Shown in pieces: positions 4,273-64,000 of a stretch of 64,000 bases of DNA. The translations under genes were made by a program, and so were the position numbers. Source of the stretch: Pseudomonas lutea (GTDB lineage Bacteria > Pseudomonadota > Gammaproteobacteria > Pseudomonadales > Pseudomonadaceae); the NCBI RefSeq assembly GCF_000759445.1, contig NZ_JRMB01000003.1:218501-282500 (forward strand), given 5' to 3'. Below the pieces are notes generated by a model. It was given only the letters and a program-made list of their open reading frames with translations, had not been told where the DNA came from and ran no database searches. The first letter of the stretch is position 1, and each line of letters begins with the position of its first letter.

Positions 4273-6219
4273 ATGTCTCTGTTCAAACAGCTGTTGATCG
4301 CAATCTGTCTGTTTTTGGTGGTCGCGTTTGCGGGGAGTTTTGTCGTCAGCCTCGAAAGCTCGCGGGCGCAGTACGTCAATCAGTTGCGCTCGCACGCTCA
4401 GGACGCCGCCACGTCGCTGGCGTTGTCGCTGACGTCCAACATCGACGACCCGGCGATGGTCGAGTTGCTGGTGTCGTCGATCTTCGACAGCGGTTATTAC
4501 GCGAGCATCCGTGTGGTGGACTTGGCGAGCGGCGACGCGATTGTCGAGCGCAGTGCGACGCCGGACAACCAGGGCGTGCCGCAGTGGTTCATCGATGCGA
4601 TCGGGCTGGAGCCGGCGGGCGGCGAGGGGGTTGTCAGCCGGGGCTGGCAGCAGACTGCGCGGGTCGAGGTGGTGAGCCATCCGATGTTCGCGTTGGCCAA
4701 GTTGTGGCAGAGCGCGCTGGGCAGCCTGGGTTGGTTGCTGGTGTGCGGCGTGGTCAGTGCGATTCTGGGGGCGATGCTGTTGCGTCGTCAGCTTAAGCCG
4801 CTGGACTACATGGTGGCGCAATCCCAGGCGATTGGTCGTCGCGAGTTTCTGACGCTGCCCGAGCTGCCGCGCACGCCTGAGCTGCGGCGGGTGGTGCAGG
4901 CGATGAACCAGATGGTCGAGAAACTCAAGGCACTGTTTCAGGAGAGCACCGAGCGCAGTGAAAAGCTGCGCATCGAGTCGTATCAGGACAGCCTGACCGG
5001 GCTGTCGAACCGTCGTTATTTCGATATGCAGCTCAACGCGCACGTCAGCCATCTGGAGGACGGGCGCGCGGGGTATCTGATGCTGTTGCGGGTCAAGGAC
5101 CTGGCCGGGCTGAACCAGCGTCTGGGTGGCAAGCGGACCGACGCGTTGCTGGTGGCGGTGGCCGAGCAGCTGGTGCGTCACTGCGAGAAGTATCCCGAAA
5201 CCCGCAACCTGATCAGCCGCAGCCGTGGCGGTGAGTTTGCGGTGCTGGCGCCGGGCATGGTCCACCATGAGGCCGTGCAGTGGGTGCAGAATCTGGAGGC
5301 AGCGCTGCAGAGTCTTGAGGCCACTGGCGCTTCGGATGTTTCGCCGGTCGCGCACATGGGCCTGGCGCCGTACAGCCCGGGCGATGCCTCGCTGACCTTG
5401 CTGGCGTTGGCGGATCAGGCGTTGTCTCAGGCCGAAAGCGGCGGCGAGCAGTCTTGGTACTGCATCGAGCGCGGGGCGATTGGTGATCTGGGTGAGGATC
5501 AGCATGAGTGGCACAGGACGCTGGACCGGGCGCTGGCCCATGGGCGTTTTCAGCTGTTCTTTCAGCCGGTGGTGGCGTCTGGCGACGGGACGACCGTGTT
5601 GCATTACAAGGTGTTGTCGCGGCTGGTCGATGCGGACGGGGTGACGATTCCGGCGGGGCGTTTTCTGCCGTGGCTGGAGCGCTTTGGCTGGTCGAGCCGT
5701 CTGGATCTGCTGATGCTGCGGGAGGTGCTGGCGCATCTGGGTACTCACAATGAGCGGCTGGCGCTGAACCTGTCGGCGGCCACGCTTAACGATGCGGCGG
5801 CGATGAACGAAGTGTTCGCGGCGCTGCGTCAGCATCCCAAACTGGGCCCGCGCCTGACGCTGGAGATCGGCGAGGAGCAAGTGCCCGAGCAGGCGGTGCT
5901 GGAGAAGCTGACCCGACGCCTGCAAGAGGCCGGGTATTCGCTGGCGTTGCAGCGCTTTGGTGGGCGTTTCAGCATGATCGGCAACCTGGCGCATCTGGGG
6001 CTGGCGTATCTGAAGATCGATGGCGGTTACATTCGCGCGATTGATGAGGAAAGCCACAAGCGGTTGTTCATCGAAGCGGTCCAGCGCGCGGCGCACAGTA
6101 TTGACCTGCCGTTGATTGCGGAACGGGTCGAGACCGAAGGCGAGCGCCGGGTGATTGTCGAGATGGGGATTGAAGGGGTGCAAGGGCGGTTGTTTGGCGA
6201 TCCTGCGCCGTGGAAGTGA
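4273..6219 (+). CDS. lapD: LapD, c-di-GMP receptor with degenerate GGDEF and EAL domains
   Basis: 648 residues; the ATG at 4273 follows TAGGAG by 7 bases. Order: TM1 (about 5-24), periplasmic output domain (about 25-150), TM2 (about 152-172), HAMP, GGDEF-like (about 235-400) and EAL-like domain (about 415-648). The cyclase motif is degenerate (RGGEF) and the EAL signature reads KVL, so the protein should bind but not make or break c-di-GMP, as known for LapD. Trp125 in the output domain coincides with the LapG-contacting tryptophan described in P. fluorescens LapD. When cytoplasmic c-di-GMP binds the EAL-like domain, the signal passes through HAMP and the periplasmic domain captures LapG, keeping LapA on the surface. 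Co-transcribed with lapG. Confidence 0.96.
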   Translation: MSLFKQLLIAICLFLVVAFAGSFVVSLESSRAQYVNQLRSHAQDAATSLALSLTSNIDDPAMVELLVSSIFDSGYYASIRVVDLASGDAIVERSATPDNQGVPQWFIDAIGLEPAGGEGVVSRGWQQTARVEVVSHPMFALAKLWQSALGSLGWLLVCGVVSAILGAMLLRRQLKPLDYMVAQSQAIGRREFLTLPELPRTPELRRVVQAMNQMVEKLKALFQESTERSEKLRIESYQDSLTGLSNRRYFDMQLNAHVSHLEDGRAGYLMLLRVKDLAGLNQRLGGKRTDALLVAVAEQLVRHCEKYPETRNLISRSRGGEFAVLAPGMVHHEAVQWVQNLEAALQSLEATGASDVSPVAHMGLAPYSPGDASLTLLALADQALSQAESGGEQSWYCIERGAIGDLGEDQHEWHRTLDRALAHGRFQLFFQPVVASGDGTTVLHYKVLSRLVDADGVTIPAGRFLPWLERFGWSSRLDLLMLREVLAHLGTHNERLALNLSAATLNDAAAMNEVFAALRQHPKLGPRLTLEIGEEQVPEQAVLEKLTRRLQEAGYSLALQRFGGRFSMIGNLAHLGLAYLKIDGGYIRAIDEESHKRLFIEAVQRAAHSIDLPLIAERVETEGERRVIVEMGIEGVQGRLFGDPAPWK

Positions 6220-6956: not shown

Positions 6957-7478
6957 TCGGTCTGCGCCGTCACTTGGGGCTGAAAGTTTTGTGAGCAAGC
7001 TCATTCTCATAGAACAAAAATTGATGGCGGTCATGCTGGCCTCTTCCCGGCTGAAGCCGGTCCCACCAAGAGTCGCGCCTGCATTCAGTAAAATGTGTGG
7101 TGATCAAACCGGCCTCTTCCCGGCTAAAGCCGGTCCCACTAAGGCACCGCATTCACATTGTGGGACCGGCTTTAGCCGGGCAGTTGATCTGGCCCTTGAT
7201 CTGCTTTTGATCTTCATACGCAAAAGGCTCGAACACCGCCAATCGCGACTTGGGTGCAGGCTGAACGCAGGGCCCACGGAGCGAGACCGGAGTGAAGGAA
7301 CCCTGAGGAACGAAGGGCCCAACCAGGAGCAAGCACCCTTGGTTACTTGGGGATGGTGCGACTTTCGACTTTTCTAAGTAACTCGCCGAAGGCGAAACCC
7401 GAGGCCGTTAGGCCGACGCGCGCTAATTTCGCGCGACAGCGCGTCGTTGCAAAACGGTGCGTACGAAAGGAGAGGCCT
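6957..7478. repeat. Second REP family plus degenerate dispersed Pseudomonas repeat
   Basis: A gap of about 520 bases. At about 7044-7067, 7113-7140 and 7160-7182 are three copies of a motif different from the first REP family: GTGGGACCGGCTT(C/T)AGCCGGGAAG, two in one orientation and one inverted. From about 7230 to 7450 follows GC-rich sequence that, read on the minus strand, has segments such as GGTTTCGCCTTCGGCGAGT and GGGCCCTTCGTTCC. I recall these from a dispersed intergenic element common in fluorescent pseudomonads. Small ORFs here lack homology I can recognise and I treat the region as non-coding. Confidence 0.6.
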
Positions 7479-61898: not shown

Positions 61899-61922
61899 GA
61901 TCACAGATCAGGTTCCTGCATG

Positions 61923-61952
61923 AAAAAACGCGGCCCTCGGGTCGCGTTTTTT
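61923..61952 (+). terminator. Intrinsic terminator of ilvIHC
   Basis: Stem AAAAAACGCG (61923-61932) with CGCGTTTTTT (61943-61952), a 10-base loop and a T run, 25 bases after the ilvC stop. Confidence 0.88.
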
Positions 61953-62045
61953 CGTTGTGAGGACTCATCTGGTATAAAGCTGCATCGTTTGTCGGCCCAA
62001 GGCCACAAGCATTTGTCGAAATTCTTTAGCTGCAAGGTATTGTCC

Positions 62046-62894
62046 ATGAGCGAACGTTCCGAAGAGCCGAACAAGGCATCTGACGCCGAAAGCCTGCTAC
62101 CCATCGATGAACATATTGAAGAGGGCCATGACGCCGAAGGGCGCAAGGTTCGCCATCGCGGCATTTATCTGCTGCCTAATCTCTTCACGACGGCCAATCT
62201 GTTTGCCGGTTTCTACGCGATCATCAGCGCAATGAGTGCGCAAAGTGCGATGAGTGCCGGTGATCAGCTAGGTGCCAGCAAATACTTCGCGTTCTCCGCG
62301 ATCGCTATTTTCGTGGCAATGGTGCTCGACGGGCTTGATGGCCGAGTCGCGCGAATGACCAATACCCAGAGCGCATTCGGCGCCGAGTACGATTCGCTGT
62401 CCGACATGGTCGCGTTTGGCGTGGCGCCCGCGTTGCTGGCATTCGGCTGGGCACTCGGGGACATGGGCAAAGTCGGCTGGATGGTCGCGTTCATCTACGT
62501 CGCAGGCGCTGCATTGCGTCTGGCCCGCTTCAATACCCAGGTTGGCAAGGCTGATAAGCGTTACTTCATCGGGCTGGCCAGTCCGGCCGCCGCTGGCGTG
62601 GTGGCGGGCACCGTTTGGGCGTTCAGTGATTACGGGATTCAGGGGTCCAAGCTGTCCTTTCTGGTCGCGCTGTTGGTCGCCGCAGCCGGGATGCTGATGG
62701 TCAGCAACATCAAGTACAACAGCTTCAAGGAGCTGGACCTCAAAGGGCGTGTGCCTTTTGTGGCAATCCTCGCCGTGGTCCTGGTGTTCGCCGTGGTGTT
62801 CAGCGACCCGCCGCGCATTTTGCTGCTTATCTTCCTCGGCTACGCAGCGTCCGGTCCTATTCAATACCTGCTGCGTCTGCGTCGCCAGAGGTAG
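62046..62894 (+). CDS. pssA: CDP-diacylglycerol-serine O-phosphatidyltransferase
   Basis: 282 residues from the ATG at 62046; a longer frame to 61920 would pass through the ilvC terminator. About seven membrane helices. The CDP-alcohol phosphatidyltransferase signature D-G-x2-A-R-x8-G-x3-D-x3-D is met in DGLDGRVAR-...-AEYDSLSD. It makes phosphatidylserine, the precursor of phosphatidylethanolamine, in the inner membrane. Confidence 0.94.
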
Positions 62895-62918
62895 TTCATC
62901 CACCTCCATTTACCGCAT

Positions 62919-62961
62919 ACTCCGTAGCTATAGATGCTTCAGTTCTCTATAGCTGCGGAGT
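62919..62961 (+). promoter_or_regulatory. Inverted repeat that buries the msrP ribosome-binding site
   Basis: Bases 62919-62934 pair with 62946-62961 over 16 bp (one G-U) around an 11-base loop. The GGAG at 62957-62960 lies in the right arm, 5 bases before the msrP ATG at 62966, so folding would hide the ribosome-binding site. No T run follows, so it is not a normal terminator. It could be a translational switch or a DNA operator palindrome. Confidence 0.7.
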
Positions 62962-62965
62962 CATC

Positions 62966-63979
62966 ATGATCATCAAAATACCTTCCAGATCCGATTGCAA
63001 AGAATCGGACGTCACTCCCGAATCCTTTTATCTGTCACGTCGAGCATTGCTCGGCAGTTCCCTTGCAGGATTGGCCGTTAGCGCAATCCCTGGCTGGGCA
63101 AATGCTGAGGAAGCCTCGCGTTACGCCGACGTCGAAGCCGGCGCTGCGCCTGAGTGGTTCAAAGGCAAATTGCCTACAACCAAGTGGCAAGCCGTCACCG
63201 TCCAGGGTGAGACGATCACACCATTCAAGGATGCAACGCACTACAACAATTTCTATGAGTTCGGCACTGATAAAGGTGACCCGGCGCAAAACGCGGGCTC
63301 CTTGAAGACGGAGCCGTGGAGCGTTGTCATCGACGGCGAGGTAGCCAAGCCAGGGCGTTATGCACTGGAAGACTTCATGAAGCCTTATCAGTTGGAGGAG
63401 CGTATCTATCGTCTGCGCTGCGTAGAGGCGTGGTCGATGGTGATCCCATGGCTCGGATTTCCGATCTCTGAACTGCTCAAACAAGTTGAGCCGACTGCCA
63501 ATGCGAAATACATCCGCTTCGAAACGCTGCAGGATCCGAAGACTATGCCCGGTCAGCGCTCAGGCTTTGCGTTAATCGATTGGCCCTATGTTGAAGGGCT
63601 GCGCCTGGACGAAGCGATGAATCCTCTCGCAATCCTGGCAGTGGGTATGTATGGGCGAGAGCTGCCCAACCAGAACGGCGCGCCGCTGCGTCTGGTGGTC
63701 CCGTGGAAATACGGTTTCAAGAGTGTGAAGTCGATTGTGCGCATAAGCCTGACCAGCGAGCAGCCGAAGACTACCTGGCAAAGCATCGCGTCGAGCGAGT
63801 ACGGTTTTTATGCCAACGTTAACCCGACGGTAGACCATCCCCGGTGGACCCAGGCTCATGAGCGGCGGCTTCCGAGCGGCCTGTTCAGTCCGAACATCCG
63901 CCAGACCGAGATGTTCAATGGGTACGGAGAGCAGGTTGCCTCTCTTTATACCGGGCTCGACCTACGGAAAAACTATTGA
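62966..63979 (+). CDS. msrP: MsrP, periplasmic molybdopterin methionine sulfoxide reductase
   Basis: 337 residues. A twin-arginine signal (SRRALLGSS at residues 24-32) targets the folded cofactor protein to the periplasm. The molybdopterin Cys is at 152 ([11 protein letters not shown]), and the sulfite-oxidase-like fold continues with [12 protein letters not shown]. With the haem membrane protein MsrQ it repairs methionine sulfoxide on envelope proteins. Its stop overlaps the msrQ start (TGATG). Confidence 0.95.
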
Positions 63980-64000
63980 TGCGTTTCATGTACTGGCGGG
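63979..64000 (+). CDS. msrQ: MsrQ, first residues only
   Basis: Only M-R-F-M-Y-W-R is in the window. The ATG overlaps the msrP stop, as expected for the msrPQ operon, so the gene runs past the right edge. Identity is inferred from context. Confidence 0.7.

Follow-up and report, generated by a model that had tools for sequence, protein, structure and literature searches.

A hairpin over the msrP ribosome-binding site in Pseudomonas that may insulate translation from pssA read-through

The pssA-msrP junction and its inverted repeat

The window, the 64,000-nucleotide stretch of Pseudomonas lutea DNA analysed here, carries msrP near its end (62966..63979, + strand), encoding the catalytic subunit of the periplasmic protein-methionine-sulfoxide reductase (NCBIfam NF003767, 486.3 bits). 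The gene upstream is pssA (62046..62894, + strand), encoding CDP-diacylglycerol-serine O-phosphatidyltransferase (TIGR00473, 117.6 bits against a cut-off of 107). The msrP stop codon overlaps the next ATG in TGATG at 63977-63981, close to the end of the window, and this suggests that msrP is translationally coupled to the next reading frame, probably msrQ. Upstream of pssA, an intrinsic-terminator-like hairpin with 16 pairs in the fold and a T run follows ilvC at about 61920-61957; pssA and msrP are therefore likely a unit separate from ilvC, and could share transcripts starting past that hairpin. The scan of the window, which is not exhaustive since it also missed the ilvC hairpin with its T run, listed no terminator-like site between pssA and msrP and no sigma-70 promoter at the repeat described below. 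We presume that pssA is the source of read-through transcription into msrP.

An inverted repeat lies between the two genes on the + strand. Its left arm (ACTCCGTAGCTATAGA, 62919..62934) begins 25 nt beyond the pssA stop codon (62892-62894) and is separated by an 11-nt loop (62935..62945) from the right arm (TCTATAGCTGCGGAGT, 62946..62961). The right arm contains GGAG at 62957..62960, the Shine-Dalgarno (SD) sequence of msrP, five bases from the ATG at 62966, just as the initial annotation had placed it. Complementarity of the arms is 94%, with Watson-Crick matches at 15 of 16 positions; the sole exception, T62925/G62955, pairs as a U-G wobble in the sense transcript, so that the word perfect in the initial annotation is a slight overstatement. 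In RNA form, the computed fold is a 16-pair stem that buries the msrP GGAG. The stretch 62895-63010 folds at -35.3 kcal/mol (z = -6.04), a value reached by none of 200 shuffles, and the stem by itself has -26.1 kcal/mol. Opening the msrP initiation region costs 21.2 kcal/mol, the highest among 27 gene starts scored across the window, which have a median of 6.7 and a runner-up at 15.4 and were chosen by a simple rule, i.e., an open reading frame of at least 600 bases with an SD word; the start scoring 15.4 (47737) is probably no true gene start. A scan for 16-nt arms with at most one mismatch and loops of 3-20 found comparable repeats at the msrP hairpin and at one other place in the 64 kb (7124-7175, in three registers), and none in five dinucleotide-shuffled versions of the window. 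The inverted repeat over the msrP ribosome-binding site, first noticed in the initial annotation, is a real feature.

The other repeat, at 7124-7175, is a long inverted repeat of the CCCGGCTAAAGCCGGTCCCAC type that folds at -47.9 kcal/mol and presumably resembles the Pseudomonas REP-type palindrome pairs. A repeat-element origin was rejected for the msrP hairpin, as a 76-base stretch over it has a single copy in its own genome at E <= 0.001. In one other Pseudomonas genome (G184), contig 19 holds at 6039-6099 a second stretch like the msrP upstream region (85% over 61 bases), perhaps belonging to a second msrP copy. An intrinsic terminator at the repeat was likewise rejected: the right arm is followed by CATCATGATC and no T run, and the scan did not list the site.

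Conservation of the pairing

Upstream regions of msrP were gathered by DNA similarity (L001-L031) and by searching with the MsrP protein. These gave 106 distinct Pseudomonas-type sequences, 23 via DNA similarity to this region, which favour kept hairpins, and 83 via the protein. Many of the contigs stop about 2 kb or less from msrP, as would be seen if an rRNA operon were nearby; part of a 16S rRNA gene lies inside one msrP locus (L114, 1-345), and another holds a partial match to that gene below the gathering score (L055, 3689-3741).

The nine-pair lower stem was paired in 98.1% of cells among 42 aligned sequences, compared to 91.8% in shuffles, and both sides had changed in 29 cells, compared to 8.1 in shuffles; none of 500 shuffles was as high in either measure. 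When the pairing partners were slid, at most 47.9% of cells in these sequences were paired. The number of pairs with both sides changed (4) and the number of pair types (11) were no better than in shuffles (135 and 145 of 500 as high, respectively). The full set of 106 sequences comprised 35 distinct arm pairs, and pairing was intact in 937 of its 954 lower-stem cells (shuffle maximum 890); the compensatory changes that the initial annotation had proposed to look for across pseudomonads are thus present. Wobbles were asymmetric in the sense strand, with 68 G-U combinations and 8 A-C combinations. The GGAG was invariant in the 42 aligned sequences and lay 5 or 6 nt from the ATG, whereas the distance from the pssA stop codon to the ATG varied from 49 to 79 across Pseudomonas-type loci. 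The upper stem and loop vary among lineages, and the stems of different families are unrelated.

Because the arms covary and the wobbles favour the sense RNA, the repeat probably acts as RNA and not as a DNA operator. A translational role of this RNA is likely, since the msrP ribosome-binding site lies within the right arm and compensatory changes preserve the pairing. The initial annotation had compared the repeat to a translational on/off hairpin, for example a thermosensor. Covariation agrees with the translational role in RNA, but the thermosensor was rejected as too stable: the opening cost of 21.2 kcal/mol at 37 C is still 18.2 kcal/mol at 50 C. Rfam searches of the window stretch (E up to 5) and of 12 relatives (E up to 0.5) likewise returned nothing that overlaps the hairpin.

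A promoter-like motif over the left arm and its recurrence with the hairpin

Two blocks near the left arm are conserved in relatives without any need of pairing, namely TGTAATTT ahead of the arm and GTCTA at its top. The GTCTA block faces a variable partner side, and in the inner part of the stem conserved left bases stand opposite variable right ones. The spacing of the blocks matches that of promoters for extracytoplasmic-function (ECF) sigma factors, and in relatives the left arm sits in the -35/-10 spacer and overlaps the -10-like block. In the window, the position aligned to the -35-like block (62905..62911, + strand), which reads TGTAATTT in many relatives, is degenerate (TCCATTT), and the position aligned to the -10-like GTCTAT of relatives (62927..62932, + strand) reads GCTATA.

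A loose pattern, [GT][GTA]AA[CT]-N16/17-[GAC]TC[TA][AC], was written after the explored loci had been viewed. Among Pseudomonas-type loci it occurred in 72 of 114, against a shuffle mean of 2.7; other loci gave 30 of 78 (mean 1.8) when pssA lay upstream and 6 of 46 (mean 0.8) when it did not. The pattern was then applied unchanged to a held-out set, for which 60 loci were fetched outside the window's genus and, after 4 duplicates were dropped, 56 were used. Of the 45 held-out loci that have pssA upstream, 23 contained it, whereas 100 shuffles gave a mean of 1.16 and a maximum of 5; it was also present in 1 of the 11 loci lacking pssA. Control stretches at the pssA loci of the explored and held-out sets contained it in 2/78 and 0/45 (-300..-190) and in 0/78 and 1/45 (-220..-110). 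The exact form TGTAAY-N17-GTCTA does not occur in the window's own genome.

The hairpin does not follow the motif everywhere. GTC[TA] is absent from -48..-22 in ten of the 106 Pseudomonas-type sequences, that of the window among them, and most of these ten keep a strong hairpin, which shows the hairpin to be independent of that motif; among the 96 counted as having it, at least two (L209 and L250) have the motif off its aligned place. In L261 the TCTA block of the putative -10 has been lost naturally and the stem is intact. The closest relatives of the window read GCTATAG at the -10-like site, and L206 and L209 read CCTATAAG. The window's lineage has lost the promoter consensus and kept a very strong hairpin; as judged from these sequences, the promoter may have changed type there, or the hairpin may have another use.

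Because the motif lies over the left arm, the transcript predicted from it would start in the loop, at about 62939 in the window (7 nt past the -10-like 5-mer), and would lack the left arm. Where GTC[TA] is present at -48..-22 (96 of the 106 Pseudomonas-type loci), the median cost of opening the initiation region was 15.8 kcal/mol in the long RNA and 5.2 kcal/mol in the short one. RNAs of the window starting at 62927 or later required at most 7.5 kcal/mol, and 4.0 kcal/mol when starting at 62939, compared to 21.2 kcal/mol for the long RNA. Three loci of Pseudomonadaceae with no pssA found upstream (L056, L071 and L302) had ordinary opening costs (4.8, 8.3 and 5.4, respectively). No mapped msrP transcript start in Pseudomonas was found in the open-access literature.

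Outside Pseudomonas, a hairpin test was applied to each locus by shuffling the upstream part alone 50 times (p <= 0.06). Loci were dropped if they duplicated another over the 60 (or 80) bases preceding the start codon, contained N or had fewer than 110 bases upstream. L128 was left out for having no start call, and the held-out fetch, drawn from the matches listed, left out Pseudomonas and a few other places with a near-complete N-terminus (e.g., G803, G822, G873 and G903). In the pooled counts, the test was passed by 29 of the 81 loci that have pssA 40 nt or more upstream and lack a terminator, by 3 of 27 with a terminator, by none of 15 with pssA nearer and by 5 of 56 with no pssA. The difference between 29/81 and 8/98 (Fisher p 5.0e-6; 0.011 against terminator loci and 0.0002 against loci without pssA) is overstated in its independence, as related species and loci make these p values optimistic. 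The remaining 52 of the 81 eligible loci failed the test, and one of the three passing terminator loci (L152) has a poor terminator candidate. Among pssA loci less than 75% alike, the test was passed by 26 of the 73 that lack a terminator and by 3 of the 24 that have one; in the held-out set alone, 9 of 30 without a terminator passed, as did 0 of 12 with one, 0 of 3 with pssA nearer and 1 of 11 without pssA.

These counts rest on a corrected terminator check, in which the hairpins of L171, which passes the hairpin test, and L347, with a T run or T-rich tail, are terminators. The earlier check ended 15 bases before the start codon and gave pooled counts of 30/83 and 7/96. With it, the held-out comparison was 9/31 against 1/25 (p 0.015); held-out loci compared to those without pssA alone (9/31 against 1/11, p 0.18) and the explored set compared to terminator loci (21/52 against 2/14, p 0.06) gave no significant difference. 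Intrinsic-terminator-like hairpins between pssA and msrP were seen in other genera at L153, L164, L177, L134, L192 and L171; at L081, with no pssA found upstream, a terminator was recognised by eye only.

At the 22 loci with both hairpin and motif, among which near-duplicates such as L079/L313 and L312/L317 were kept, 246 of 298 pairing partners of the initiation region lay between the -35 and the end of the -10, including all 14 at L335 and all 13 at L354. At the same loci, 294 of 298 partners lay upstream of the predicted start, in part owing to the way the test was constructed. A class-level sample (L271-L297, 27 loci), not pooled with the other counts, had no pssA found upstream of any locus (0/27), the promoter motif at 3 loci and a passed hairpin test at 3. 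The layout recurs outside Pseudomonas with unrelated stems and a kept SD position. We give an even chance to a reading in which the hairpin arose repeatedly, in unrelated sequences, at pssA-msrP junctions of Gammaproteobacteria as an alternative to a terminator.

Proposed mechanism, rival readings and known systems

We consider it rather probable that the RNA hairpin insulates translation of msrP from pssA read-through, and that the transcript of an ECF-type promoter belonging to msrP escapes it. A transcript from pssA would carry both arms, fold and bury the msrP SD. The ECF-type promoter would overlap the left arm with its spacer and -10, so that its own transcript, beginning in the loop and lacking that arm, would be translatable, and synthesis of MsrP would require its own stress promoter to fire. 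The hairpin, its covariation in RNA, the two-block motif of the relatives and the excess of such hairpins downstream of a terminator-less pssA come from computation; for this mechanism we infer the promoter identity of the motif, the transcript start, the sigma factor, the read-through and the size of the difference in translation.

A regulated translational switch, in which the main msrP transcript would start ahead of the left arm and a small RNA, a protein or heat would open the hairpin, is possible but unlikely. It would account for a conserved pairing that covers GGAG, and for the very strong stem that the window's lineage keeps despite degenerate promoter-like blocks. However, the stability of the stem between 37 C and 50 C is far from that of a thermometer, and the lineage-variable upper stem and loop, together with stems unrelated among families, ill suit a single trans-acting partner; the promoter motif over the left arm in relatives also speaks against it. 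RNA thermometers such as ROSE and FourU hold the SD in a stem ahead of a stress gene, as the msrP hairpin does, but the msrP stem is far more stable and had no Rfam match.

A DNA operator, i.e., an inverted repeat bound by a dimeric regulator over the promoter, would fit the inverted symmetry that overlaps the putative promoter and the conserved GTCTATTGGTGCATCAG block. The initial annotation had taken a transcript start within the stem as a sign of such an operator, and in relatives a promoter motif does lie there, yet a DNA palindrome has no strand preference that would yield 68 G-U against 8 A-C combinations. Stems that are unrelated across families while their position at the SD is kept, and an inner part that pairs conserved left bases with variable right ones, further argue against an operator, which we consider quite improbable. 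The wobble asymmetry and the unrelated stems fit silencing of read-through RNA with escape of the promoter's own transcript. To the same low degree we credit a 3' stabiliser or a decay or processing stem of the pssA mRNA that covers the msrP start by accident. Such a stem is suggested by its start 25 nt past the pssA stop, and the ordinary opening costs at L056, L071 and L302 are predicted equally by it and by insulation of msrP, but the stem keeps its place relative to msrP, with GGAG 5 or 6 nt from the ATG, while the stop-to-ATG distance varies. Chance or a neutral relic, e.g., the remains of a repeat element, is scarcely credible given conservation, recurrence and a covariation that already contradicts it, and with no second genome copy at E <= 0.001 no repeat family can be named.

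Searches of the open-access literature (msrP/msrPQ/PA4691/PA4692, Pseudomonas; hairpin mechanism) found no report of such a hairpin for msrP. As far as searched, its setting at a bacterial stress-repair gene and the pairing of the ribosome-binding site with a promoter spacer are new, as are the repeated origin and the terminators in the hairpin's place at other loci. If insulation from read-through is correct, an inducible gene would be kept silent behind an always-on neighbour without a terminator, stress promoters and their start points could be spotted from sequence alone, and msrP mRNA levels may misreport MsrP protein. The excerpts available of one study report up-regulation of MsrQP homologues in cystic fibrosis airways (PMC6110831).

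An ECF sigma factor is known to drive an msrP homologue in the ECF16/SigF system (with NrsF, DUF1109), as BcrS-bcrXQP of Brucella, whose promoter is given in the available part of that account as (T/C)GTAAC-N17-CGAA, with a Brucella -35 of TGTAAC and -10 of GCGAAA (PMC8315932). The -35 and the 17-nt spacing are like the motif of the window's relatives, but the -10 is CGAA there and GTCTA in the msrP relatives; in the window neither block of the ECF16/SigF consensus is kept. That part of the ECF16/BcrS account contains no mention of a hairpin (PMC8315932). NrsF was not found in a search of the window's own genome and is patchy in the genus (12 of 59 genomes), and ECF16 with NrsF was rejected as the sigma system. 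The AlgU/sigma-E consensus is given, in the portion of its source consulted, as GAACTT-N16/17-TCtgA (PMC10651043), and when compared by eye with the Pseudomonas msrP motif (GTAATT-N17-TCTAT), which departs from that consensus, the spacing fits and the hexamers match in part. A widely held factor such as AlgU appears to be a better candidate than ECF16, because NrsF occurs in 12 of 59 genomes while the motif occurs in 72 of 114 Pseudomonas-type loci. No regulation data on AlgU/sigma-E control of Pseudomonas msrP were found in the open-access literature.

Protection from read-through by a hairpin is known from the transposases of IS10 and IS50, in which RNA read into the element from outside forms a hairpin that masks the ribosome-binding site. 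The msrP case shares the hidden ribosome-binding site in the read-through RNA, but IS10 and IS50 are mobile elements and msrP is a chromosomal gene.

The closest mechanism, to judge from the parts of the sources consulted, is that of phage T4 gene e. In long transcripts of gene e (early ones), soc, 49 and I-TevI the SD and/or AUG lies in a stem; gene e and I-TevI are also transcribed from a late promoter close upstream, and this RNA lacks the stem's 5' part (PMC3014915; PMC2988022); a 100-fold effect of the gene e hairpin is reported (PMC3014915). In our computed folds the SD or start codon of msrP is likewise paired in the long transcript, and the msrP hairpin would work like that of gene e, an assignment that hinges on the transcript start, here a predicted one. 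The T4 hairpins were shown experimentally, while the msrP case is computed only. The T4 examples are late phage genes with phage late promoters, whereas msrP is a chromosomal stress-repair gene with an ECF-like motif whose spacer contains the left arm. If insulation of msrP is correct, the T4 gene e principle would extend to a widespread chromosomal stress gene.
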